Source: Acidobacteriota bacterium (GTDB taxonomy: Bacteria > Acidobacteriota > Polarisedimenticolia > J045). Taken from it: a stretch of 41,593 bases of DNA. Below the pieces are notes generated by a model. The model saw nothing but the letters and a program-made list of their open reading frames with translations. It made no database searches and was not told the DNA's origin. Below are positions 2,723 through 41,593 of this stretch, one piece after another. Position numbers and translations under genes: made by a program. Location: assembly GCA_024763475.1 (NCBI GenBank), contig JANTFM010000003.1, forward strand, positions 1 through 41,593, read 5' to 3'. How positions within the stretch are numbered: position 1 is the stretch's first letter; each line of letters opens with the position of its first letter.

Positions 2723-5700
2723 GGGTGCTGCTCCACGAGCGCGGTATGGCGGCGGTAGCGCGGATCTTCGCTCTTGCGCTCCTCGATCCACGCCTGGTGC
2801 GGGCCGCAGACCACGCGGTAGTCACACGAGCTGCACTCGGCCCCGCCGTTGGGGAGCGGGAGGAACTCACCCCGCACAGCGAAATCCCGGAGTCCGCTGA
2901 CGAGTTCGCCGAGTTCCTCCCGACGAGAGAGGAGGTAGGGCCGATCGACCACGAACTCCCCTTTCCGGGGAGACGCTTTGAGGGAGACGACCCGGAACTG
3001 CTCGACGCCCTGCGCGTCGCGCTCCGCAGCCGGCAGGCGTTCCTCGAGCAGCCTCGCATAGAGAGGGACCTGCAGGGAGCGGCCCCCCTGGTAGAGTTCG
3101 CCCTTCTCGGGCCTCGGGTATTTCTCGTTCTTCGACCACTTGTAATCCACGACGCGATGCCCGCCGGCAGCATCCCGGTCGACGCGGTCGGGGCGTCCCC
3201 TGACCTGCAAGGAGCTGCCGGAGATCGTGAGTTCCCCGTCGAGCGGAACTTCCATTTGTGCCACCCGCAAGCCTTCCGTTCGCATGCGCTGCACTTCGAC
3301 GAGCACGTAGCGCTCCAGGCAGCTGCGGATCCGCATCGACTCGGCATTCCACAGGGCTCTCGAGCCGAGCGCTCCCTGGGCGATCACCTCTCGGATCCTC
3401 AACGCGACCCAGCGCGGAATGCGTTCGAGCAGCTCGGAGTCCTTCTCCGCCGCAGGGGGCAAGCCATCCTCGAAGGTACGGAAGAGATCCTCGAGGACCC
3501 GATGCGCGACCGCCCCCACGTCTCTCGGCTGGGGCGGCGTGATCGCCGCCGCGTCCTCCCAAACCCGCAACCCGAGCAGATGACGCAGGAAGAAGCGAAA
3601 GGGGCAGCGCGCAAGTTCTTCGAGTCCGGTGACCGAGAAGGCATCACTCGCCGCCAGCCCCCTCCCAACGAGACCGCAGTATTCGTTGTACTCCCTCTCG
3701 CGCAGGCGCAAGCGGTCGGCCCGCCGGCTTCTCGCCAGATCCGTGTAACTTGCAAGATGAGCGGAGAGTTCCGCATCGTCCTCGCGCACCGCGGCGATGT
3801 CGTATTCTTCGACTCGAAGCAGGGCTCGGCCGGCGTCCGTCTCGCTCAAGCCAGGAGGGGCAGAGGAGATCCGCTCCACGGCGGGAGACGCCGCGGGATT
3901 CTCCGGGTCGAGCACCTCGCCGGAACGCTCTTCGATCAGCCGGGCGAGCGGATCCACGGGCTGCCGCGTCTGGCCCTTCACGTCGTCGAGACGTGGCCAG
4001 CTGAGGACCACGCTCGACTGGCCAGCGGCCAGGCCGAGAGAGAAGAGAAGATCTCGCTCACGGAAACGGTCTCCAGCCCGTTTCAACAGACAGCCATAGC
4101 GTTTGACGAGCCGTTCCCGCGCGATGTCTCCCAGGATCGGATCGGGGTGCCCGGGAGGCGCAAAGTTGTCGTGGGAAAGCCCGGTGAGCCACACGGCGTC
4201 GAGTCTCAGGCCCCGGGCATGGTTCCAATCCAGGAGCAGCACGCCCTCGCCCCCCCGGCGCCCCTCGAGACCGCGCCCCTCGTCTCCCTCGCCGACACGG
4301 CTCTGCACCTCGAGCAAGCGCTCCAGCCACAACTCAAGTGCCAGATCGCTTCGGGGAGCAATCCCCAGCTTGTCCCACCCGCTCAACAAGCGCGCGGCGT
4401 CCCTGGCAGCTTCGAACAGCGCGCCACCCGCCGCATGCTCGAGACCGAGCTGGCAGGTCATGCCGATCAGGTCGTGGGAGATCTCGGACCAAGCTCCCTT
4501 TCGCTTTCCTTTGTGCTCCAGCGCCCTGCGGAAGGCGCCGAGCGCGTCGAAGAGCGCCGCGGCCATCTCCGCCACCCGCCCGACCTCAACCGAGCGAACG
4601 CTTCGCGAGCTCGGCGCAGGCCGGCCCTCCCCTTGTTTCGCCTCCCAGGCCTCCTCCCGCGCGAGTCCCTTCCTGAGCCGTCGCAGCAGGGCCTCCCACA
4701 CGGTCGGATCGACTCCGCCGCAGCCCGCAAGGCGCAGGATGCGGTCCACCGCCGAGGGCGACAGGGCCGGATCATCCTCCGCCTCGAGCCGTGCCCGCAG
4801 GACCGCGCTCACCTCTCCGCGACCCCCCTCACCGGCCGCCAGCGCGATCACCGCGCGGAGGGCCCGCCCGTAAGGCCGCTCGAGAAGCCGCCGGGGCGAG
4901 CGGCCGCAGACCGGAATACCCGCCCTCTCGAACTCCTCACGCAGGAGGCTCTCCTGCCGAGCAGCACGGGACATCAAGACCGCCATTCTGCCGAACTGGC
5001 CCCCTTGTCTGGCAGCCCCCAGCAGGTCTCGTGCGATCTCCCGTGCCTCGGCTCGATCTCCCGGACAGCCGAGAATCCTGATGTCACCAGCGGGCAACCC
5101 ATAGGCCGCGCCGACCGCATCGCGACCTCCCGTAAGTTCCGTCTCACGCAGCGAGAACCCTCGGCTCTCGGCCCAGACGAGGAGTTCCTCGAGGAGTTCA
5201 CAGGACGGACTGTCGGGCGGTGCTGCCGGGCAGAGCCATGTCACCTCATTGTGACGGCCAATCTCGGCAAGGAGTTCACGCTGGAGCCCGGTGAGGTCGT
5301 AGATCCCGTAGACCAGCACTTCCTTTGCGCCACCGGGGAGCGGGGCACCCTGCGCCGCCCGGTAGAGCGTGGCATCATCCGCAAGACCGTGGCGCGTGAG
5401 ATGGGCGTCATAGCGCCTGAAGATCCGGGCCAGATGCTCAAAACGGAAGCGTTCCTCGCCCCTGAGCTCACCGAGAATCTCCTTCGCCGGAAGATCCTCG
5501 AGGCCGCTCTCCCGCAGATCCCGAATCGCCCGCGCCATGGCGACGGCAACCGGAAGCTTCAGCGCAAGGTCCCCGTAGGGGCCCGCATCCTCCGCGAGGA
5601 GATCGGCCGCGATCACTCGGTCCGCGTGGGGCGGCATGATCCATGCGTCGAGCCTCGGCGAGGCCATCTGCCGCGCCAGATCGGGCAGCGTCACCATGTG

Positions 5701-15730: not shown

Positions 15731-17439
15731 CTCGATTCCTTGAGTCGGGTACGCGTCTCGTCGCGACCGGGAAGGTAGACCCACGAGGAAATGACTGTCG
15801 CGCTGATCTTGGCATCGAGGATCCTGCTTGGCGGCCCCTCGAGGATGTCGCGGTCGAAGACGGTGAAGTCCGCGTAGCGGCCGGCCGAAATCGTGCCGAG
15901 GCGGTCGCTTGAGGAGACGGCCTCGGCGGCTCCCAGCGTGAACGCTCGCAAGGCTTCCTGGATCGATAGGCGCTGCTCCGGCAGCCAGCCCCCGGGAGGA
16001 TAGCCCTCCGCGTCCTGTCGCGTCACGGCCGCATAGAGGCCGAGGCGCGGATCGATATCCTCCACCGGGAAGTCCGAGCCAAAGGCGAGCAGCGCTCCTG
16101 AATCGAGCATGCTGCGCCAGGCATAGGCGCCGGCCAGCCGTTTCTCCCCGAGCCGAAGCTGGGCCCAGGGCATGTCCGAGCTCGCATGAGTCGGCTGCAT
16201 GGAAGCAACGACGCCAAGCGCAGCCGGACGCGGCAGATCGTCTGGATGCAGGATCTGGGCATGTTCGAGACGCAACGCCGGGCCCTGAGCGGTCGTCCCT
16301 CCGAGGCTCTCCCAGGCGTCGAGGACGGCGCGGTTCGCCGCATCGCCGATCGCGTGCACAGCCGGCTGCAGTCCGGCCCGCGAGGAACGCTCGATCTCAC
16401 GAAGCAGTTCCTCGGGCTCAGTGACCCAGAGGCCCACGCTCGCCGCGTCGTCACTGTAGGGCTCGATCAGCCGCGCGCCCCGGCTGCCCAAAGCCCCATC
16501 CGCGTAGAGTTTGACGCCGACGAGATGGAGACGGCCCTCGTGCTGTGGGCCCGTCTCGAGCAGTTCCCGGTAGAGCGCGGAGTCCGCGCTCGCATACGCA
16601 AAAACACTCAACGGGAAGCGTCCCTGGGCCGCGAGCCTCTTCATCGCCTGCCAGGTGATCGTGTCGACTCCCATGTCGTGGACCCCGGTCAGTCCCACGG
16701 CAACCAGGTCTGACGCCGCATCGGCAAGAGCTCGCTCGACATCCTCAACGCCGGGCTCCGGGATCTGTGAGAACACGAGGTCCATCGCCTGGTCCACCAG
16801 GATCCCGGTGGCCCGGCCCGAGCGGTCGCGATGAATGCTTCCACCCGGTGGGTCCGGAGTCTCATCATTGATGCCCGCCGCGTCGAGAGCCGCTCGATTG
16901 ACCCAGAGGGCATGCCCGTCGATCCGACGCATCGCCGCCGGCCGCTCGGGGAGCAGCTGATCGAGGCGATCGGCATCCGGCCACGCGGCATCCGGCCAGT
17001 CGTTCTGATCCCAGCCCCGCCCCTGGACCCAGCGTTCCTCCTGGTGCTCCTCGGCGAAGTGCTTTATCCGCTCCAGGGTCTCCTCGAGGCTCACCGCGGC
17101 GACGAGGTTCACCTGCCCCAGGGTCATGCCATATCCCCGGATATGGGCGTGGGCGTCCACAAGACCGGGAACAGCCAGTTCGCCCGGCAGGACCTCGGCG
17201 GAAGCTCCCTTGGCGATCCACTGCGGGATCTCACGCTTGGACAACAACCGAACAACCCGCGGCCCCGAGACGAGAACCGCATCAGCCCAAGGCTGCGCCG
17301 GGTCGCCGGTCCAGAATCGCGGCCCCGTGAAGATCTTCCCGGGGCCGCCGGATTCCGACACCTCCGCACGACATCCGAGCAGGACCGCAGCAAGAGCAAG
17401 ACAGGGACATAGGACACATGCCAGCAACAGCATTCTCAT
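15727..17439 (-). CDS. YtcJ-like amidohydrolase lipoprotein
   Basis: 570 residues from ATG 17439 (GAGG nine bases upstream). This start gives a lipoprotein signal MRMLLLACVLCPCLALAAVLLGC with lipobox LLGC, whereas the track start adds about 87 non-conserved residues. Amidohydrolase-3 landmarks: VDAHAHIRGYG (HxH), GVKLYADGALGSRGARL (family lysine/aspartate), AVHAIGDAANRAVLDAW, LRLEHAQILHPDDL and FGSDFPVEDIDPRLGL (terminal metal Asp). Together they form the binuclear metal site of the imidazolonepropionase/dihydroorotase superfamily. The C-terminal composite domain is present (LGTISAGRYADFTVFDRD). The family hydrolyses amides or cyclic amides; the substrate is unknown. It is likely anchored in the envelope by its lipid. 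Confidence 0.9.
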   Translation of the reverse strand: MRMLLLACVLCPCLALAAVLLGCRAEVSESGGPGKIFTGPRFWTGDPAQPWADAVLVSGPRVVRLLSKREIPQWIAKGASAEVLPGELAVPGLVDAHAHIRGYGMTLGQVNLVAAVSLEETLERIKHFAEEHQEERWVQGRGWDQNDWPDAAWPDADRLDQLLPERPAAMRRIDGHALWVNRAALDAAGINDETPDPPGGSIHRDRSGRATGILVDQAMDLVFSQIPEPGVEDVERALADAASDLVAVGLTGVHDMGVDTITWQAMKRLAAQGRFPLSVFAYASADSALYRELLETGPQHEGRLHLVGVKLYADGALGSRGARLIEPYSDDAASVGLWVTEPEELLREIERSSRAGLQPAVHAIGDAANRAVLDAWESLGGTTAQGPALRLEHAQILHPDDLPRPAALGVVASMQPTHASSDMPWAQLRLGEKRLAGAYAWRSMLDSGALLAFGSDFPVEDIDPRLGLYAAVTRQDAEGYPPGGWLPEQRLSIQEALRAFTLGAAEAVSSSDRLGTISAGRYADFTVFDRDILEGPPSRILDAKISATVISSWVYLPGRDETRTRLKESR

Positions 17440-32957: not shown

Positions 32958-34499
32958 CTAAGGGCAGCTGATCACCTCTTGCTCGAGGCAGGGAGCCACC
33001 GAGGCGGAGCGGGGACTTCCGTCGCTGGAAAAACCATAGGAACCCTCCTTCCCGGACGCTTGGGGCACGGCCAGGAAGTACACACTTCCCGCACCAGGTG
33101 TCACCGTATACGCGGTCAGTCCCATCGTGCTGCAGACACTGGGAAGGTGCGAGGCAAAATCTCCTATCGATCCCTCGTAGATGCCGAAGTCCGAGTCCTC
33201 CGCCAAGCACGAAGGGGCCCAGGATAGGTTCAGATCGCCATTCGCGGCCTTGGACACGGACAAGCCCTCCCCAAGACCCCCTACCGGAACACTCCCGGAG
33301 CCTCCCAGCGGTAAGCGATCGGTGTAAACCGCGTTGTGCCCCTTCCAGTACATGAAGGGAATCGCCGGGGCACCGGGAGGAACCTGCCGAATCGTGTTCG
33401 GTTGCCGGTTTTGTGCGTTGTCGAAGGTCAGCTGAACCAGTGGCCCCCAGCTTTCGGTCAACGGATCCCATTTCCGATGCCAGATGTTGGACTGATTTCC
33501 ATCGTTGTTCACGTCCAAGGCGACGAACATCCACACATCGTCTCCTCGATAGGCCAGCGCGCTGCGAAAGTGGAATCCGTCCTGCTCCGGATGGTCCACC
33601 ACGTCGATGTAACGCCACGCCTCCTCGCTCCCCATCACCTTGTAGGCGTGCTTAACGCTTTCTGCCGTGCAGGACCAGACGACATGCAAGGTATTGCTGG
33701 CGGTTACCGTGAAGGCGAACTCGCGGGTCAAGGCACTCGCACCGCACCCCACGGTCTCATCAGAGGAACTCCAGACGAGGCTATCCGTTGGCTTCACGAA
33801 GCCGCTGCCATCCCAGCGGTAGTACTGGATCTTGGCTCCGTCTACCCAAACGACGACAACGGGGCGTCCCTCGTTGTCCAGGCTCGATCCAACGCGCACA
33901 TTTGCATCGGGGAGGTCTTCCACCCAGCCACTCCCGATGAGCATGCCGTCGTGCGAATACCTGAAGAAACGCACGTTGCCAGCGGGGTCGTTCGTGGTGC
34001 GGGTGATGATGAATAGCTCATCCGCCGTTGCCACCACATTTGAGCGCTTGCGCAACCCGACGTCCGTGATGACCTCCTGGGGAAGCCCGATATCCGACGT
34101 GGTTCCGCCAGGGGTACCGATCCGATACCAGTAGACCCTTGTGGCGTCCGGATGAGTGACCCACATATTCGACCCGTATCCCGTCATCGAAGCATGGTAG
34201 TTGAGCCACCCGGCGACTTCTCCCCCGACGCTGCTTTCGAAAACGTTCGCGGCGGTGTCTTCGAAGGCGGTCCAACTCACGCCCGCGTCGGTCGACTTGA
34301 AGAACTGATCGTGATCGTCCGCCACCACGAGCCAGAGCTCATAGGGATTCTCGGGATTGATGTACATTTTCCACCGCGGAACGCCAATGGTCGGATTGAT
34401 GTTCGCCGTATCGATCAGATGGTTCTGCCCCCACGCCGCGGGCAAGAACAAGAGTAAGAGAACACAATTGGTTGCGATTGAACTCAGCCAACGAGTCAC
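32958..34499 (-). CDS. Exported BNR/sialidase-like propeller protein with Cys-Pro C-terminal module
   Basis: 513 residues from GTG 34499, chosen because GGGGAG lies eight bases upstream and a signal peptide follows at once (MTRWLSSIATNCVLLLLFLPAAWG); the track start adds 30 residues without a ribosome site. The body has beta-propeller character with an Asp-box-like FFKSTDAGVSWTAFED near residue 60 and repeated WxxD/YRW strands. No sialidase catalytic arginine triad is apparent, so enzymatic activity is not claimed. The final ~90 residues (LNLSWAPSC...FGIYEGSIG...CST...GSVYFLAVP...EGSYGFSSDG...SCP) match the module of the neighbouring exported proteins and of the cytochrome at 19760. Confidence 0.75.
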   Translation of the reverse strand: MTRWLSSIATNCVLLLLFLPAAWGQNHLIDTANINPTIGVPRWKMYINPENPYELWLVVADDHDQFFKSTDAGVSWTAFEDTAANVFESSVGGEVAGWLNYHASMTGYGSNMWVTHPDATRVYWYRIGTPGGTTSDIGLPQEVITDVGLRKRSNVVATADELFIITRTTNDPAGNVRFFRYSHDGMLIGSGWVEDLPDANVRVGSSLDNEGRPVVVVWVDGAKIQYYRWDGSGFVKPTDSLVWSSSDETVGCGASALTREFAFTVTASNTLHVVWSCTAESVKHAYKVMGSEEAWRYIDVVDHPEQDGFHFRSALAYRGDDVWMFVALDVNNDGNQSNIWHRKWDPLTESWGPLVQLTFDNAQNRQPNTIRQVPPGAPAIPFMYWKGHNAVYTDRLPLGGSGSVPVGGLGEGLSVSKAANGDLNLSWAPSCLAEDSDFGIYEGSIGDFASHLPSVCSTMGLTAYTVTPGAGSVYFLAVPQASGKEGSYGFSSDGSPRSASVAPCLEQEVISCP

Positions 34500-34728
34500 G
34501 ATGATTGCTCCCCTGTCCGTATACATCCCCGGCCTCATAGAATGAAGCGCTGTTGCAGTCCTTACTAACGTAGGCCCAGCGTAAGACATTGCACGTCAAG
34601 AACACGAGTTGCGCGGAACTCGAGCTGTGGAGCCTGGCTGGGAACGCTGGATGGACATCCGGTCTAGCCCGACCGGAATCTCCAGCACCTCACCAGGAGT
34701 CTCCGCCCATCCCTCGTAGCCGGGACGA

Positions 34729-36366
34729 TCAAGGGCAAGCACCCGGAGTGAGCGAGACACTCGGGTGACCGTGAGCGCTCTCTTCACCCTCAGGGCTGAC
34801 GGCCGTGACGAGGTAGAGCAGTGCCTGCTCCGGCAGGGGCAGCGTAGGGTCCCCGCCCAACCAGATAGGCGTTCCGTCCGCCGTCTGGTGGACGCACTGG
34901 AACGCGTCGACTCCCGGCCGCGGAGCACGATAGACGTGGTAGCTAGCCACGGGATGTTCGGTCTCGTAGGAAAGGTCCTCCCAGCTCCAATCCTCTCCCA
35001 GGAGGAAAGGAGCCGCCCCCGGTCCGGAGACCTGGAAGTCGGTAAATAGCGGGAGAATCTTCGAGATGACACCGTCCCGATCGACGATGAAGATCTCGCC
35101 CCTCGCGTCCTTACCGAAGCTCGTGAGATCGAAGGTCAGGGCTCCGCCGGGATCGAGCTGGGCCGTGTGATCCTGGGGATCCGTAGCGACTCCGCCTTCG
35201 AAGACGAACGAGCGGATGAATCCGGCGCAGTAGTCGCCGTAGAGGTAGCGCCCCTGAAGCGACGACATGCGGCAACCGCGATACACATAGCCGCCGGTGA
35301 CCGAACAAGCGAGACCCGCGTGGTCGTATTCCAAGACGGGAAGCAGAAGCGAAGGATCGCCACACTCTGGGGACGTCGAACAGCTCACTCCGGGGGGATC
35401 ACAGGCTGGCGTGCCCCCATCGAAGCAGTGCATGCCCTCCATCTGCCGCCAGCCATAGTTGGCACCTGGCGCGAGATCGCCCGGCGTGACGTTCACCTCT
35501 TCCCAGCAGGACTGGCCGACATCGGCAATGTAAAGATCGCCGGTCAGCGGGTCGATTTCGTTACGCCAGGGGTTGCGAAGGCCATAGGTGTAGATCTCGT
35601 CGCAAGTCCCCCCCGCCCCGTCCGCGAATGGGTTGTCCGACGGCACGCTGTAGTTTCCCGGACCTTCGAAACAGTCCGCGGGGTTTGGTGTCGGCGCCAC
35701 ACCCCGCACATCGATCCTGAGGATCTTGCCCAGCAGCGTCTCAAGCTTCTGGCCGTTGCCGCAGAGACCATGGACATCGCCACCGCCTCCGCCGTCACCG
35801 CTGCTGATGTACAGGTAGCCATCCGCGGCAAAGAAGATCTGCCCGCCATTGTGATTCGTGCTGGGCTGCGAGAAACGCAGCACGCGGCTTTCGCTGAGCG
35901 GATCGGCCACGTCCGGGTCACCTGCAGAGACGTCATAGCGCGCGACGACGCTGAAATGGGGACCCGAGGCGCTGTCACTCTCGGTGTAGTTGACGAAAAA
36001 GCGGCCGGTCGTCTCGTAGTCCGGATCGAAGGCCATGCCGAGCAGACCCTGCTCGTTCCCATGGGTGCTGACCGTGCTGCGAAGATCCAGGAAGAGCTGC
36101 AGGTCCCCTGTGCCGTCTCCACGATGATGGATCCAGACCCGACCGTCTTGGCAGACGATAAAGATTCGTGTCGCATCCCCGGGGACAGCCGTCACGAGCA
36201 GGGGATCGACCAAGAGCGGAGAGTTCGCCACGATGAGGCTCTTTAGACCGGAATGCTCGAGCGCGCTGACTCCTTCGCAGAGCTCTTGCGCGCCACTGTT
36301 CGGAAGTATCATGCTGAGACACAGGACGAGAGACCAAGGAAGATGGCGAGCAACACGCAGAGTCAT
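34729..36366 (-). CDS. PQQ-type glucose/sorbosone dehydrogenase-like exported protein
   Basis: 545 residues from ATG 36366 (GGGAAGGA upstream), giving the signal peptide LPWSLVLCLSMILPNSGA. The six-bladed GSDH propeller is recognised by GNEQGLLGMAFDPDYETTGRFFVNYT, STNHNGGQIFFAADGYLYISSGDGGGGGD, LLGKILRIDVRG, IYTYGLRNPWRNEIDPLTGDLYIADVGQ and ANYGWRQMEG. The family oxidises sugars with PQQ, though many homologues (HHIP-like) are untested. A C-terminal FnIII-like part (VASYHVYRAPR...LLYLVTAVSPEGEESAHG...GACP) resembles the shared Cys-Pro module. Several Cys pairs suggest disulfides, fitting a periplasmic or surface location. A GC hairpin lies inside the last codons (34740-34767). Confidence 0.85.
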   Translation of the reverse strand: MTLRVARHLPWSLVLCLSMILPNSGAQELCEGVSALEHSGLKSLIVANSPLLVDPLLVTAVPGDATRIFIVCQDGRVWIHHRGDGTGDLQLFLDLRSTVSTHGNEQGLLGMAFDPDYETTGRFFVNYTESDSASGPHFSVVARYDVSAGDPDVADPLSESRVLRFSQPSTNHNGGQIFFAADGYLYISSGDGGGGGDVHGLCGNGQKLETLLGKILRIDVRGVAPTPNPADCFEGPGNYSVPSDNPFADGAGGTCDEIYTYGLRNPWRNEIDPLTGDLYIADVGQSCWEEVNVTPGDLAPGANYGWRQMEGMHCFDGGTPACDPPGVSCSTSPECGDPSLLLPVLEYDHAGLACSVTGGYVYRGCRMSSLQGRYLYGDYCAGFIRSFVFEGGVATDPQDHTAQLDPGGALTFDLTSFGKDARGEIFIVDRDGVISKILPLFTDFQVSGPGAAPFLLGEDWSWEDLSYETEHPVASYHVYRAPRPGVDAFQCVHQTADGTPIWLGGDPTLPLPEQALLYLVTAVSPEGEESAHGHPSVSLTPGACP

Positions 36367-36437
36367 GAGAGTCCTTCCCTTTCGCGCCCAACCGAAAGCC
36401 CAGCGCATCTTAACTTACTCGCGCGATATTGTCAGTT

Positions 36438-36458
36438 ATTGTATTAGATGATATCTAA
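36438..36458 (-). promoter_or_regulatory. Candidate promoter and Fur-type operator upstream of the PQQ dehydrogenase
   Basis: TTAGAT-GAT-ATCTAA (36444-36458) is an inverted repeat with 6-base arms. Directly abutting it, on the minus strand, is TACAAT (36443-36438), a good -10 about 70 bases before the dehydrogenase ATG. The site also lies at the position equivalent to the operator in front of the intact Fur-family gene at 39499. Confidence 0.4.
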
Positions 36459-36483
36459 AGGTATCCGTCGTCTAATTCCGACG

Positions 36484-36560
36484 ATACACAACGAGGCAGC
36501 CCCTCTCAAGGAGCGTGGAATCAGCCCGTTCGCGCAACGCGTCGCTATTGCGCAGCAAGT
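36484..36560 (+). pseudogene. Decayed N-terminal fragment of a Fur-family regulator gene
   Basis: The frame reads NEAAPLKERGISPFAQRVAIAQQV, matching [24 protein letters not shown] of the intact regulator at 39499. The start codon aligned to ATG is ACG. Homology stops after the first helix region (about residue 27), so the DNA-binding wing and metal domain are gone. Upstream similarity includes two TCTAA elements at the same 11-base spacing as the intact locus, so promoter and N-terminus were duplicated together. No further gene is supported up to 36781. Confidence 0.75.
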
Positions 36561-36781
36561 CAGGCCTTGCGGCTGGAAGGGGTATGTAGCGGCCCTTCGG
36601 CCCCTAGCTCGGATGTCGAGCGACGCTCGAGCCCGTCAATGTGGCCTGGCTCCAATCGCACCCCTTCCCGGGCACGCAAGCCGCACGAGAGGATCGTAGT
36701 CAAGCAAACGCGAAACACCGAAGTGGTCACGGCGTGGAGCTAACCCCACACCTCCTCCTTGCTGCGCGCGATCGGCAGACT

Positions 36782-38845
36782 CTAGGGGCAGGGACCGATT
36801 CGCTGCGTTACGCAGGCTTCCACAGAGGGTGGCCGTTCCGCGTCGCTGCTCGTGCGGCCGTAGGATCCCTCGGCATCTTCCACGCGGGGAACCACGATAT
36901 AGAAATGCGCGCCGGACGAGGGCGTGATGGTCGCGGAGGTGGCTCCACCGGTGCTGCACTGGATGGGAGTCTTGCCCTCCGGATCATCGAAGGCACCTTC
37001 GTAGATTTCGTAGTCCGTTCCGCCACCGCACGCCGCGGCCCACGCCAAGTCGAGACTCGGGCTATCCTGGTTCTTCGCGACCGTGAGAGGATCGCCCGGC
37101 AATCCCTGGCTCCCGTAAATGCGACCGGCGCCCGCAGCACTGCCGGACAAGATGCCGGACACATAGATGTCGACCGAATCTCCCGGAGAGCCGCTCTCGC
37201 TGCGGTTGTCGGTATAGATCGCCATCAGGTCATCCAACACGATATCGAGACCGCTGTAATCACCGAACTCGAAGACATCATCAATGTGGGCCGACGTTTC
37301 GGCTGTAACTCGTTCCTCAGCGGACCAGGTCTTTCCACCATCCGTCGAGAATGTGTAGTAGACATCCACTCCGCTGCGATCCGCGGTGTTGCGCGTGTTG
37401 TAATAAACAAGGTGAACCGCACCGTCGACCCCCGCCGCAATAGACGGTTGCCAGCGGTCAACCTCGAGGATGTCGTCACTGCGGTGGGGAGTGACGATCG
37501 ACCAGGTCGCTCCCCCATCGTGCGATCGAGCAACCTGGATGCGGGAGTGGTTCGCTTGGGAATCGCTGACAACTGGAGCCGTCGTGTCGGACCAAGCAAG
37601 GTACACACTGTCGGCATCCGGCCCATCGGAGAGATCCGCCGTCGCGGACAGATACACGCTGGCTTCACGAATCTCCTGCGACGGCAAGGGGAACGCGTAG
37701 GCTGCCTCCGTCGCTGCTACAAGAATCGACGGCTCGAAGCTGTTCCCTGCATCTGTCGATTTCCTCAGGCGAATGGAACGGCTCTGGTAGGCCGGCCAGG
37801 CAGCGTAGACAAAACCGTTTCGATCCGTCGTGACGTCACCGGCTACACCAAGCTCCTCGTCTCCTGAGGAGAGGAACCGGCCGTGCCACTCGTTGCCAAA
37901 GTCACGGGACCATGCCAAGAGAACGTCTCCGCCGACATCGTAGATCATGTAGATGCTGTCCCTCTCGGGCGAGTCGGCATGCCTGTCCACGTGCAGGAAA
38001 GGCCGGTTCCCGTTGCTGACGATGCAGCGGCGGGGATTCCCAGGGGTATCATCCTCAAGATCGTTCCAGCTCGCTCCACCATCATCCGATCGGTAGAAGC
38101 AGGCCTCGCAACCAGAGAGACCACAGTTGACGAGAGCGGATCCGTAGGCGAGGACCCCATCCGCAGACCACTCGACCGATGGGTCGCAGCACGTTCCGCC
38201 CAAGGGAAGCTCCGTCTGCGTCCAAGTCTCCCCACCATCGGTCGAGTAGTGCATATGGACTTCGTCGTTTGGACCAATCGATCCTGCGACGACATGGGAC
38301 GGACTCGACGGAGAGATGGCGACAGCCGCTTCAGCTGCGTCTTCCGGCCGCGTCACACGAACGTCTCCCGACGCAAAGTCCGTTCCCTGCTCAGGGGCAG
38401 AAGACGGCACCTCGCCTTCCTTCAGGACAATCCAGTAGCGGTCTCGGGTGCGGGTTGCCCTGCGATAGCTCCGCCCGCTGACCAAGTATCCTCCATACAT
38501 CTTCCGGAAGACATTGAGCGCGTTGAGAGGATAGCGTCGTGGGGAGTCCCGACCGAGTTCTGGCCGCGCGCGGCGCAGCGCGACACGGAAGAAGGCAGGA
38601 AGCGGCTCTCGAATCCCGGCCTCGTCACGGGCCAATGACCCGAGATCCTCTGCGGAAAGCTGGTAATTGCGGTCATCCCAAGGGCCGAGGGTCACCAGGG
38701 CCTCGTAGTCGACGCTACGATCAACGCCCCGTGCGCTGTCAATGGCGACGGTCCGCTCCTCGTCGATGAAGGTCTGCGAGTGCGCTGGCCGTGACGCGCT
38801 GCCTGCAATCAGCAGCGCCACTATCATGAATCCCGTGCGAGACAT
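36782..38845 (-). CDS. Exported sialidase-like (Asp-box) propeller protein with Cys-Pro C-terminal module
   Basis: 687 residues; GGAGGAGG ten bases before the ATG; signal peptide MSRTGFMIVALLIAGSASRPAHS. At least five Asp boxes (S-x-D-x-G-x-(S/T)-(W/F)) are visible: STDGGETW, SDDGGASW, STDAGNSF, SHDGGATW, STDGGKTW, defining a BNR/sialidase-fold propeller. A clear sialidase active site was not identified, so the call is structural. An N-terminal ~150-residue region is unrecognised. The last ~90 residues (LDLAWAAAC...YEIYEGAFD...CST...HFYIVVPRVEDAEGSYGRTSSDAERPPS...GPCP) form the shared module. It is probably surface-exposed or secreted. Confidence 0.8.
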   Translation of the reverse strand: MSRTGFMIVALLIAGSASRPAHSQTFIDEERTVAIDSARGVDRSVDYEALVTLGPWDDRNYQLSAEDLGSLARDEAGIREPLPAFFRVALRRARPELGRDSPRRYPLNALNVFRKMYGGYLVSGRSYRRATRTRDRYWIVLKEGEVPSSAPEQGTDFASGDVRVTRPEDAAEAAVAISPSSPSHVVAGSIGPNDEVHMHYSTDGGETWTQTELPLGGTCCDPSVEWSADGVLAYGSALVNCGLSGCEACFYRSDDGGASWNDLEDDTPGNPRRCIVSNGNRPFLHVDRHADSPERDSIYMIYDVGGDVLLAWSRDFGNEWHGRFLSSGDEELGVAGDVTTDRNGFVYAAWPAYQSRSIRLRKSTDAGNSFEPSILVAATEAAYAFPLPSQEIREASVYLSATADLSDGPDADSVYLAWSDTTAPVVSDSQANHSRIQVARSHDGGATWSIVTPHRSDDILEVDRWQPSIAAGVDGAVHLVYYNTRNTADRSGVDVYYTFSTDGGKTWSAEERVTAETSAHIDDVFEFGDYSGLDIVLDDLMAIYTDNRSESGSPGDSVDIYVSGILSGSAAGAGRIYGSQGLPGDPLTVAKNQDSPSLDLAWAAACGGGTDYEIYEGAFDDPEGKTPIQCSTGGATSATITPSSGAHFYIVVPRVEDAEGSYGRTSSDAERPPSVEACVTQRIGPCP

Positions 38846-39287
38846 GATTTCCGAACCTCCTCCCGGGCCTCCCGAAAGGGAAGCTGATCGACCTTGGCTC
38901 CTATGGTAGGACGCGTGGAGAGACCCGCCTATTAGGGAATGCCTGACTTATGCACGCGGGAAACCTTAGCCCGATGGATGCATGAGGCTCAGAGTCCAAT
39001 CGCCGTCGATAGACGCTCGATGGCTGGCACGTAGCTTCAAACACCTGATCTGTGCCCGAGAAGGGTACCCCGCAGGATGGCAGACGCGAGGACTGGTTAG
39101 AGGACCTACAAGGGTCCGACCAGGGTTCAGATAGGGTGATTGGACCGAGGCGCGCATGCCGATTCTCGGTAGAGGCACTGGGAGATCCTGAGGCCCGTTG
39201 GACGCAGCGATCGTGCCTCCGAAAGGAAAGAACCGCGCGAATCGCTCGAATTGTGGTTCATTGACGTATTGGACGCGGTGTCCGCTC
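38846..39287. other. Intergenic region, no supported gene
   Basis: About 440 bases upstream of the small frameshifted gene. Antisense and short ORFs here lack ribosome sites and family features. A TTGACG near 39262 could belong to a promoter for the small gene but has no good -10 partner. Confidence 0.4.
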
Positions 39288-39301
39288 AAAGGAGCAAGAT
39301 C

Positions 39302-39476
39302 ATGAAAGAGTTCTCGAAAGACCTTCCTTGCCACTCTGCTTGGCGCTCTTGCCGCTGCCGGCTGCCTCGTTCTGCTTGGCGTCGCGGTCGTCACCATCAC
39401 CAGCGCATCCAGAAAGATCGAGGTCGAGGATGGAAGCTGGCGATTCGGTATTGTCCTTGAACTTGACAATGTCTAA
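39302..39476 (+). pseudogene. Small exported protein gene with a one-base frameshift
   Basis: ATG 39302 has AAAGGAG seven bases upstream, but the frame is lost within two codons at ATGAAAGAG. Removing one A from the AAA gives a clean 57-residue frame: MKSSRKTFLATLLGAL, AAAGCLVLLGVAVVTITS, then a hydrophilic tail ending IVLELDNV and TAA. This has a lipobox-like AAGC or a single TM segment. Either the gene is broken, or the run of A is a sequencing error, or slippage occurs. The stop codon overlaps the operator-like repeat of the following Fur-family gene. No family recognised. Confidence 0.5.
39462..39476. promoter_or_regulatory. Candidate operator before the Fur-family regulator
   Basis: CTTGAC-AAT-GTCTAA, a 15-base imperfect inverted repeat 23 bases before the ATG. 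It shares the TTAGAY-N3-RTCTAA pattern with sites at 36444 and 39940. A second TCTAA lies 17 bases further on. Confidence 0.4.
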
Positions 39477-39498
39477 ATTTTACCCTAGTCTAACACCA

Positions 39499-39894
39499 AT
39501 GAAACGCAACGAGGCAGCCCTTCTCAGGGAGCATGGCATCAACCCGTCCGCACAGCGTGTCGCGGTCGCCCAGCACGTGCTACACACCGGAGAGCACCCG
39601 TCGGCCGACGAGGTGTGGAAACGGGTGCGAGAGCGCTTTCCGCAGATCTCGCGTGCAACGGTCTACAACACGCTCAACCTGTTCGTGGACAAGGGCTTGC
39701 TGCGGCGCTTCGTGCTGGTCGAAGGCCGCGTCGTCTTCGATCCGAGGGTCGAGAATCACCACCATTTCCTCGACGAGGAAAGCGGAATGCTCCACGACCT
39801 GCCTTGGGACGCGCTGGAGGTTTCCGGGGTCACTCAACTCAAGGGCTTCGACGTGCGCGAATTCCAGGTGGTCCTGCGGGGAAAGAAAGCTTGA
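39499..39894 (+). CDS. Fur/PerR-family metal-dependent regulator
   Basis: 131 residues from ATG 39499, chosen because family homology begins at [20 protein letters not shown]; the track start at 39328 adds an unrelated leader. The winged helix is clear: [36 protein letters not shown]. The metal domain has [18 protein letters not shown] (His87-89, then acidic ligands) and no CxxC pairs, so the structural zinc site of Fur/PerR is missing, as in Irr-like and some PerR-like members. It sits 92 bases upstream of the catalase gene, which it probably controls as a peroxide- or iron/haem-responsive repressor. A truncated relative lies 3 kb upstream. Confidence 0.9.
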
Positions 39895-39939
39895 AGTCGG
39901 TGCCTGCTGCGGAAGAGGAAGTTTTTTTTGGCCATAAAG

Positions 39940-39954
39940 ATAGACGTTATCTAC
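39940..39954. promoter_or_regulatory. Candidate operator before the catalase gene
   Basis: ATAGAC-GTT-ATCTAC, agreeing in 5 of 6 bases per arm with TTAGAY-N3-RTCTAA, 32 bases before the catalase ATG. It follows a run of eight T at 39922-39929. Confidence 0.4.
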
Positions 39955-39986
39955 TTCTAGATCTTATCCACACAGGAGCAAACGCC

Positions 39987-41444
39987 ATGTCCAAGAAAGC
40001 AAAGTTGACCACGGCCGGAGGTATCCCGGTCCCTGACAACCAGAACAGCCTGACGGCCGGCGAGAGGGGGCCCCTCCTTGCGCAGGACTGGCAGCTCTTC
40101 GAGAAGCACGCGCACTTCAACCGTGAGCGAATCCCCGAACGGGTCGTCCACGCCAAGGGCTCCGCAGCCTACGGAACGCTCACCATCACCGGAGACATCA
40201 CGACGTACAGCAAGGCGAAAATTTTCGCGGAGATCGGCAAGCAAACCGAGTGCTTCCTGCGCTTCTCCACGGTTGCAGGAGAACGGGGGGCCGCCGATGC
40301 GGAGCGGGACGTGCGCGGCTTCGCACTGAAGTTCTACACCGAGGAAGGAAACTGGGACCTTGTCGGCAACAACACTCCCGTCTTTTTCGTGCTCGACCCC
40401 TACAAGTTCCCGGACTTCATCCACACCCAGAAACGGGACCCGAAAACAAACCTGCGCAATCCAACTGCGATGTGGGACTTCTGGTCGCTCTCGCCCGAAA
40501 CTCTCCACCAAGTCACGATCCTGTTTTCGGACCGGGGTCTGCCGCGAAGCTATCGCCACATGAATGGCTACGGCTCCCACACCTTCAGCCTCATCAACGC
40601 CGAAGGCGAACGATCCTGGGTCAAGTTCCATTTCAAGACCGAGCAAGGCATCGAGTGCCTTAGCAACGAGGAGGCCGCGAAACTCGTCGGCGAGGACCGT
40701 GAGAGCCACCAGCGTGATCTCGCCGACGCCATCGAGCGTGGTGACCACCCGCGCTGGACCTTCTACGTGCAGGTGATGCCCGAGGACGATGCCGAGAAGG
40801 TGCCCTACAACCCCTTCGACCTGACGAAGGTCTGGCCTCACGGCGACTACCCGCTGATCGAGGTCGGCACCCTCGAACTCAATCGCAATCCGGAAAACTA
40901 CTTCGCAGAGGTCGAACAGTCGTGCTTCTCTCCCGCGAACGTCGTGCCAGGAATCTCGCACAGCCCCGACAAGATGCTCCAGTTCCGGATCCTCTCCTAC
41001 GGGGATGCCCACAGGCACCGCCTCGGCGTGAACTACGAGTCTCTGCCGGTGAACCGGGCTCGCTGCCCGGTCCATAATTACTATCGCGATGGCGCCATGC
41101 GTTTCGATGATAACGAGGGCGGATCCGTGAACTATGAACCCAACAGCTCAGGAGGCCCGATCGAAGTGCCGGAGGTCAAGGAGCCGCCGCTCGAAGTGCG
41201 CGGCGCGGCGGACCGCTACAATCCGCGTGAGGACAACGACCACTTCTCGCAGGCAGGTGATCTGTTCCGCCTGATGAGCGCCGAAGAACGTCAGCGCCTC
41301 GCCGCAAATATCGCTTCTGCGATGCGAGGCGTTCCCGAGCCCATACAGCAACGGCAGTTGGGTCACTTCTACAAGGCCGATCCCGAGTACGGCCAGGCGG
41401 TAGCCGAAGCCCTTGGGCTACCCGCTGCAGACGTCCGTCATTGA
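39987..41444 (+). CDS. katA: Monofunctional haem catalase (small-subunit, clade 3 type)
   Basis: Dismutates hydrogen peroxide. 485 residues from ATG 39987 (AGGAG eight bases upstream); the ORF-track start at 39615 runs through the regulator gene in another frame. Catalytic His55 ([12 protein letters not shown]), the distal Asn of [11 protein letters not shown], and the proximal haem-ligand Tyr near 337 in [14 protein letters not shown] are present. Its length and the region preceding the Tyr fit small-subunit catalases binding NADPH. It is controlled presumably by the Fur-family gene upstream. The 3' end, including the stop, is the start of a 70-base tandem repeat. Confidence 0.97.
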
Positions 41445-41593
41445 GACCCTGGACGGTGACCGCGGCGTGGATCTTCCGCACCGTGGGCTGCTCCCTACAG
41501 ACGTCCGTCATTGAGACCCTGGACGGTGACCGCGGCGTGGATCTTCCGCACCGTGGGCTGCTCCCTACAGACGTCCGTCATTGAGACCCTGGA
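41428..41593 (+). repeat. 70-base tandem repeat seeded by the katA 3' end
   Basis: The unit beginning CAGACGTCCGTCATTGAG is present at 41428, 41498 and 41568, identical over two full copies plus 26 bases, and reaches the window edge. The first unit contains the last katA codons and TGA. Weaker similarity (GGGCT...C.CT.CAGACG) extends about 18 bases upstream into the coding region. Confidence 0.9.

Follow-up and report, generated by a model that had tools for sequence, protein, structure and literature searches.

A decayed partial copy of perR carries a well-preserved PerR-type box beside a dehydrogenase gene in an Acidobacteriota genome

A broken copy of perR

The DNA analysed here, referred to as the window, comprises positions 1 to 41,593 of contig JANTFM010000003.1 (assembly GCA_024763475.1) of an Acidobacteriota bacterium, a metagenome-assembled genome (MAG) with 484 contigs, 4.05 Mb in total and an estimated completeness of 85%. 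Positions 36439–36560 of this window are an old, broken copy of the 5′ end of the Fur-family regulator gene perR, which starts at 39499. The coding part and the own promoter of this remnant are dead. Its first PerR box has survived, or been re-formed, as an almost perfect 7-1-7 inverted repeat. Intact PerR, when metallated and unoxidised, would still bind this box, and, given a distance of 78 nt from the box to the likely start downstream of it, the divergent dehydrogenase gene may have acquired some degree of control by PerR and hence by peroxide. The duplication and the fossil operator are well supported, and the explanation as a whole we regard as moderately probable.

In the search for direct repeats, one family of 122 nt was found, which consisted of 36439–36560 and 39457–39578 and showed 74% identity without gaps. 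Smith–Waterman alignment joined 36451–36560 to 39469–39578 over 110 nt with no gaps at 75% identity, and its score of 85 was compared with those of 1000 dinucleotide shuffles (mean 20.8, SD 2.5, maximum 39). When the live perR was compared with the whole genome by BLAST, the remnant on the + strand was recovered at E = 6.8e-15 and the rest of the hits were noise, which makes it the sole second copy in 4.05 Mb. Chance similarity of the two loci was ruled out by the shuffles and the genome-wide search (E ~1e-14), which leave it practically no probability. An earlier note on this DNA had proposed the repeat and named alignment statistics like those of shuffled sequence as grounds for abandoning it; the alignment lies far above the shuffles and the repeat is real. 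The span proposed there, 36425–36560 and 39449–39575, could be upheld for 36439–36560 and 39457–39578, but its extension to about 36425/39449 is weak, requiring a 4-nt indel and being supported by a single shared TATTGTC. The paired TCTAA elements were indeed found with equal spacing, at 36454/36471 and 39472/39489, that is, 17 nt apart in both copies.

The reading frame is in register between remnant and live gene over 27 codons, and not 24 as first counted. Past 36560 the identity drops to the background of about 25%, and neither tblastn nor blastn of 36561–36790 revealed a convincing residue of the Fur C-terminus or of catalase 3′ of the remnant; as the earlier note had stated, nothing of the remaining gene is detectable beyond this point, and the start codon is lost as well (ACG at 36481, where the live gene has ATG at 39499). 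The remnant thus combines significant in-frame similarity to an intact gene with the loss of the start codon, the −35 element (TTGACA changed to TTAGAT), the second box and all sequence past codon 27, as expected of a decayed duplicate. At 16 of the 18 coding bases in which the two copies differ, most relatives side with the live gene. The differences are distributed over the codon positions as 1/7/9, which is not distinguishable from the ratio of 26:25:50 among relatives (Fisher p = 0.81), so the case for decay rests on the lost elements and the polarised changes. Considering these results, it is nearly certain that the repeat is real and represents a decayed partial perR copy.

Among about 60 related loci, the sequence closest to the remnant is that of the window's own perR, with a score of 85 against 53 for the runner-up. 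The upstream box is the strong one in the window, in the same-family relative G003 and in the remnant, and this feature, together with the best match to the live copy, agrees with the remnant having originated in this lineage. A search of 395 other genomes of the phylum gave no related copy of the remnant. Of the 29 related genomes compared, all from outside the genus of the window, 1 carries two full-length members of this perR subfamily, on separate contigs. The degenerate partial copy of the promoter and N-terminus proposed earlier is there, and the second full regulator that had been looked for in relatives occurs in a single genome, which is not decisive for two full paralogues. In that genome (G081, the source of locus L068) the copies are located at C35:3654-4040 and C314:10147-10533 and are 60% and 58% identical to the window's perR, respectively.

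The possibility that the 5′ part alone was copied, instead of a whole gene that decayed afterwards, is almost evenly balanced and compatible with either functional reading of the box. Single-crossover integration, for example, or a tandem duplication that broke at codon 27, could have produced it as the segment with the BNR gene arrived: the similarity ends abruptly at 36560, and the direct repeats flank a 3-kb segment, truncated on the left and complete on the right, as single-crossover integration leaves them. A later deletion, however, would give the same picture at 25% divergence, and the partial copy in the planctomycete locus L065 (see below) retains a C-terminal piece, hence a fuller copy existed at least there. 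Translation of the remnant into a short protein is very improbable: although the frame 36448–36699 is open (83 amino acids), its product has no family match and no relative in the 395 other genomes, its start would fall inside the box, and its tail is unrelated sequence.

The live regulator and its partner gene

The live gene (39499–39894, + strand) encodes a Fur-family protein of 131 amino acids, whose PF01475 score is 69.1 bits against a cut-off of 23.1; the genome has one further intact Fur-family gene, on contig C318. PerRB and PerRA are the best NCBIfam models, both below their cut-offs, and the best solved match is 5NL9. The metal ligands could be aligned, and His33, Asp81, His87, His89, Asp100 and Asn57 are invariant in the alignment, for which His37, Asp85, His91, His93 and Asp104 of Bacillus subtilis PerR served as reference (a row consistent with PDB chain 2fe3). 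All five regulatory-metal ligands are thus present, as are the PerR-type Asn and Asp, which distinguish PerR from Fur (PMC8638851). The structural zinc CxxC motifs are absent, there being no cysteine among the 131 residues, but the cysteine-free state also occurs in Leptospira PerR and thus does not exclude the PerR type. The partner gene on the same strand is a catalase (39987–41444; PF00199, E = 8.6e-193). In relatives, the gene after the regulator is usually peroxiredoxin-like and sometimes a catalase, and in G003 it resembles a catalase-peroxidase, as judged from its sequence. Since the metal ligands, the PerR-type Asn and Asp, the match to Leptospira PerR and the peroxide-defence neighbours agree, the protein is inferred to be a PerR-type peroxide regulator, for which H2O2-sensitive, metal-dependent DNA binding would be predicted.

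At the contig end, a tandem repeat of about 70 nt extends from the last catalase codons (41411–41593) and may be a real array or an assembly artefact.

PerR-type boxes in the window and in relatives

Sequences upstream of the regulator were compared in 63 relatives (Myxococcota, Acidobacteriota, Planctomycetota and others), and a 7-1-7 inverted repeat, TTAGACTTAGTCTAA, was found in 58 of them, usually covering the −10 of perR; many relatives have a weaker second box 17 nt further upstream, over the −35. Both TCTAA elements of the earlier note proved to be the right half-sites of two such PerR-type boxes 17 nt apart. A scoring matrix derived from the 58 relatives, with no window sequence in the training set, was run on the 41.6-kb window, and the genome was searched by pattern. 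The top score in the window, 18.2 bits, belonged to the remnant box TTAGATGATATCTAA (36444–36458), followed by live perR box 1, CTTGACAATGTCTAA (39462–39476, overlapping the −35), with 17.9 bits. Live box 2, TTTACCCTAGTCTAA (39479–39493, + strand), overlaps the −10 and has the position of the main box in most relatives; it scored 7.1 bits, against 1.3 bits for its decayed counterpart in the remnant, GTATCCGTCGTCTAA (36461–36475, + strand), of which the right half-site TCTAA alone is left. Rank 3 was taken by a weak box upstream of catalase, ATAGACGTTATCTAC (39940–39954; 7.8 bits). Genome-wide, only one site lies within one mismatch of TTAGAYNNNRTCTAA, namely the remnant box. The retained operator postulated earlier can thus be accepted for the first box, while the second box and the −35 were both lost.

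The remnant box differs from the live box in 5 bases and has nevertheless kept its score, an outcome with p ~0.001 under 5 random substitutions from the live box. The comparison suggests selection on the remnant box, and it is likely that this operator has been preserved and is still bound by PerR.

Exact matches to the motif in 48 further genomes were located mainly at perR or at the gene after it, and the others preceded two rubrerythrins and an AhpC-type peroxiredoxin (proteins named from their sequence). Because the motif sits at perR and at peroxide-defence genes, it marks likely peroxide-regulon sites. In Myxococcota and related MAGs, the exact boxes around position 1501 precede the rubrerythrin genes (L190, L191) and the AhpC-type peroxiredoxin gene (L197), outlining the regulon of this type of PerR. 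The off-site exact boxes in L190, L191, L197 and L201 were also considered as further fossils and rejected, as no perR remnant is present there. A search of open-access papers for four common forms of the site and for the remnant box itself gave no match. With the matrix and the TTAGACTTAGTCTAA-class pattern, fossils of this sort can be looked for in Acidobacteriota, Myxococcota and Planctomycetota, as can the PerR regulons of these phyla.

A short frame at 39303–39476 includes a hydrophobic stretch (..FLATLLGALAAAGCLVLLGVAVVTITSASRKIEVEDGSWRFGIVLELDNV*) and ends with a stop codon within live perR box 1. It is seemingly frameshifted from an ATG at 39302 and may resemble the N-terminus of SppA.

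The dehydrogenase as a candidate target

The possible captured target (34732–36366, − strand) encodes a protein of the glucose/sorbosone dehydrogenase (GSDH) family (PF07995, E = 2.3e-32; the TIGR03606 match is below cut-off). Its likely start, 36366, was chosen by reading the sequence and lies after a ribosome-binding-like stretch, AAGGGAAGGA. On the + strand, all that lies beyond the box is the 3′ end of the BNR gene, which is convergent. The sole consensus-like promoter pair next to the box is CTGACA-17-TAAGAT (36407–36435, − strand), which is 8 bp from it and not above chance. The earlier note had placed a leftover operator upstream of this gene, abutting TACAAT as a good −10; the operator is there, but the TACAAT has no recognisable −35. 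With CTGACA-17-TAAGAT as the promoter, the centre of the box would be near −51, and PerR might have an effect in either direction; if TACAAT is used, the box occupies the spacer and PerR would repress. Promoter conservation among the dehydrogenase orthologues gave no usable similarity by eye, searches for the dehydrogenase on plasmids gave distant matches only, and no known RNA family was detected in 36300–40100.

Several observations weigh against regulation of this gene by PerR. No dehydrogenase promoter is significant (2 consensus-like matches in the region compared with 1.1 expected by chance), the box is missing from all 24 related dehydrogenase loci examined, a role in peroxide defence is not obvious for the dehydrogenase, and there was no sister genome with a conserved box, the same genus being outside the comparison. 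Furthermore, if the ancestral box was nearer to the consensus than the live one, the probability of retention rises to as much as 0.04, 0.12 and 0.27–0.35 for 3, 2 and 1 substitutions, respectively. On the strength of the position of the box, PerR control of the dehydrogenase is plausible, although we stop short of calling it probable.

Somewhat less weight is due to an inert fossil, in which the box has persisted by chance, or is bound to no effect, and regulates no gene. The loss of the second box, the −35 and the start codon fits such a fossil, as does the absence of a significant dehydrogenase promoter, and for some ancestral boxes chance retention would be frequent (up to 0.35 in the case of one substitution). 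On the other hand, retention has p ~0.001 if the live box was the starting point, no other site in the genome equals the remnant box, and the parallel copy in L065 likewise retained its boxes. It is improbable that the box serves as a decoy, titrating PerR and tuning its autoregulation without control of the neighbour: the remnant box equals or exceeds the live promoter box in score, but a single extra chromosomal site titrates little of a typical regulator, and nothing specific favours this role. Should the fossil box be functional in the control of the dehydrogenase, it would represent regulon growth caught in the act, where a dead autoregulated copy hands its neighbour a ready-made operator.

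A parallel case in Planctomycetota

In the scan for boxes away from perR, a partial perR copy surfaced in L065, a Sedimentisphaerales MAG of Planctomycetota. Its 3365–3505 segment is 76% identical to the promoter and N-terminus of its own perR (E = 9e-25), and within 3365–3567 the N-terminal stretch leads into 28 nt that match the C-terminus of perR, that is, the copy is internally deleted. It has an open frame of 49 amino acids, with start, both boxes, −35 and −10 in place, and lies 2.6 kb upstream of an intact perR–catalase pair in the same orientation. Downstream on the same strand are genes for a likely membrane protein, a rubrerythrin/ferritin-like protein and a peroxiredoxin. A search of 197 further genomes from its class gave no convincing remnant of this kind.

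L065 is an independent parallel case. As in the window, a partial perR copy precedes the intact gene in the same orientation and has retained its operator; in contrast to the window, the L065 copy is internally deleted, has an intact promoter and reads towards antioxidant genes, where capture of a PerR promoter would be readily understandable. The window and L065 would be two independent cases if bacteria repeatedly spread operators to neighbouring genes through the partial duplication and decay of autoregulated regulator genes, with the copy dying and its operator remaining to recruit the neighbour; we consider it rather unlikely that this speculation holds.

Other features of the window

The intergenic region between the BNR gene and perR (38978–39133) is a dispersed element repeated elsewhere in the genome, with 76% identity over about 155 nt at G000:C14:17992-18145 and 90% over 40 nt at C111. 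Three consecutive genes on the − strand (32958–38845) encode proteins that are apparently secreted and resemble one another in their C-terminal tails (..SYGFSSDGSPRSASVAPCLEQEVISCP, ..GEESAHGHPSVSLTPGACP and ..SYGRTSSDAERPPSVEACVTQRIGPCP). An inverted repeat of about 44 nt (86%) is located at 17314–17355.

Comparison with known systems

Leptospira-type PerR proteins (LIMLP_10155, PDB 5NL9; LIMLP_05620) lack the structural-metal cysteine motif (PMC8638851). The regulator of the window resembles them in that its best solved match is among them, it contains no cysteine, and it has the PerR-type His/Asp ligands, Asn57 and Asp100. It differs in its length of 131 amino acids, its scores below the NCBIfam cut-offs, its occurrence in other bacteria, its TTAGAC-NNN-GTCTAA-like box and its linkage to catalase. 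The PerR box of B. subtilis is a 7-1-7 repeat, TTATAAT-N-ATTATAA. The window's box is also a 7-1-7 inverted repeat and the metal ligands are conserved, whereas the half-site is TTAGACT instead of TTATAAT and the protein has no CxxC motifs. Regulatory rewiring via promoter duplication or capture, and mobile promoters, are known concepts. Unlike in promoter capture, the element described here stems from the regulator's own autoregulated gene and retains some of its codons, and the control of the neighbour is putative; as in those systems, a promoter/operator segment has been copied next to another gene.

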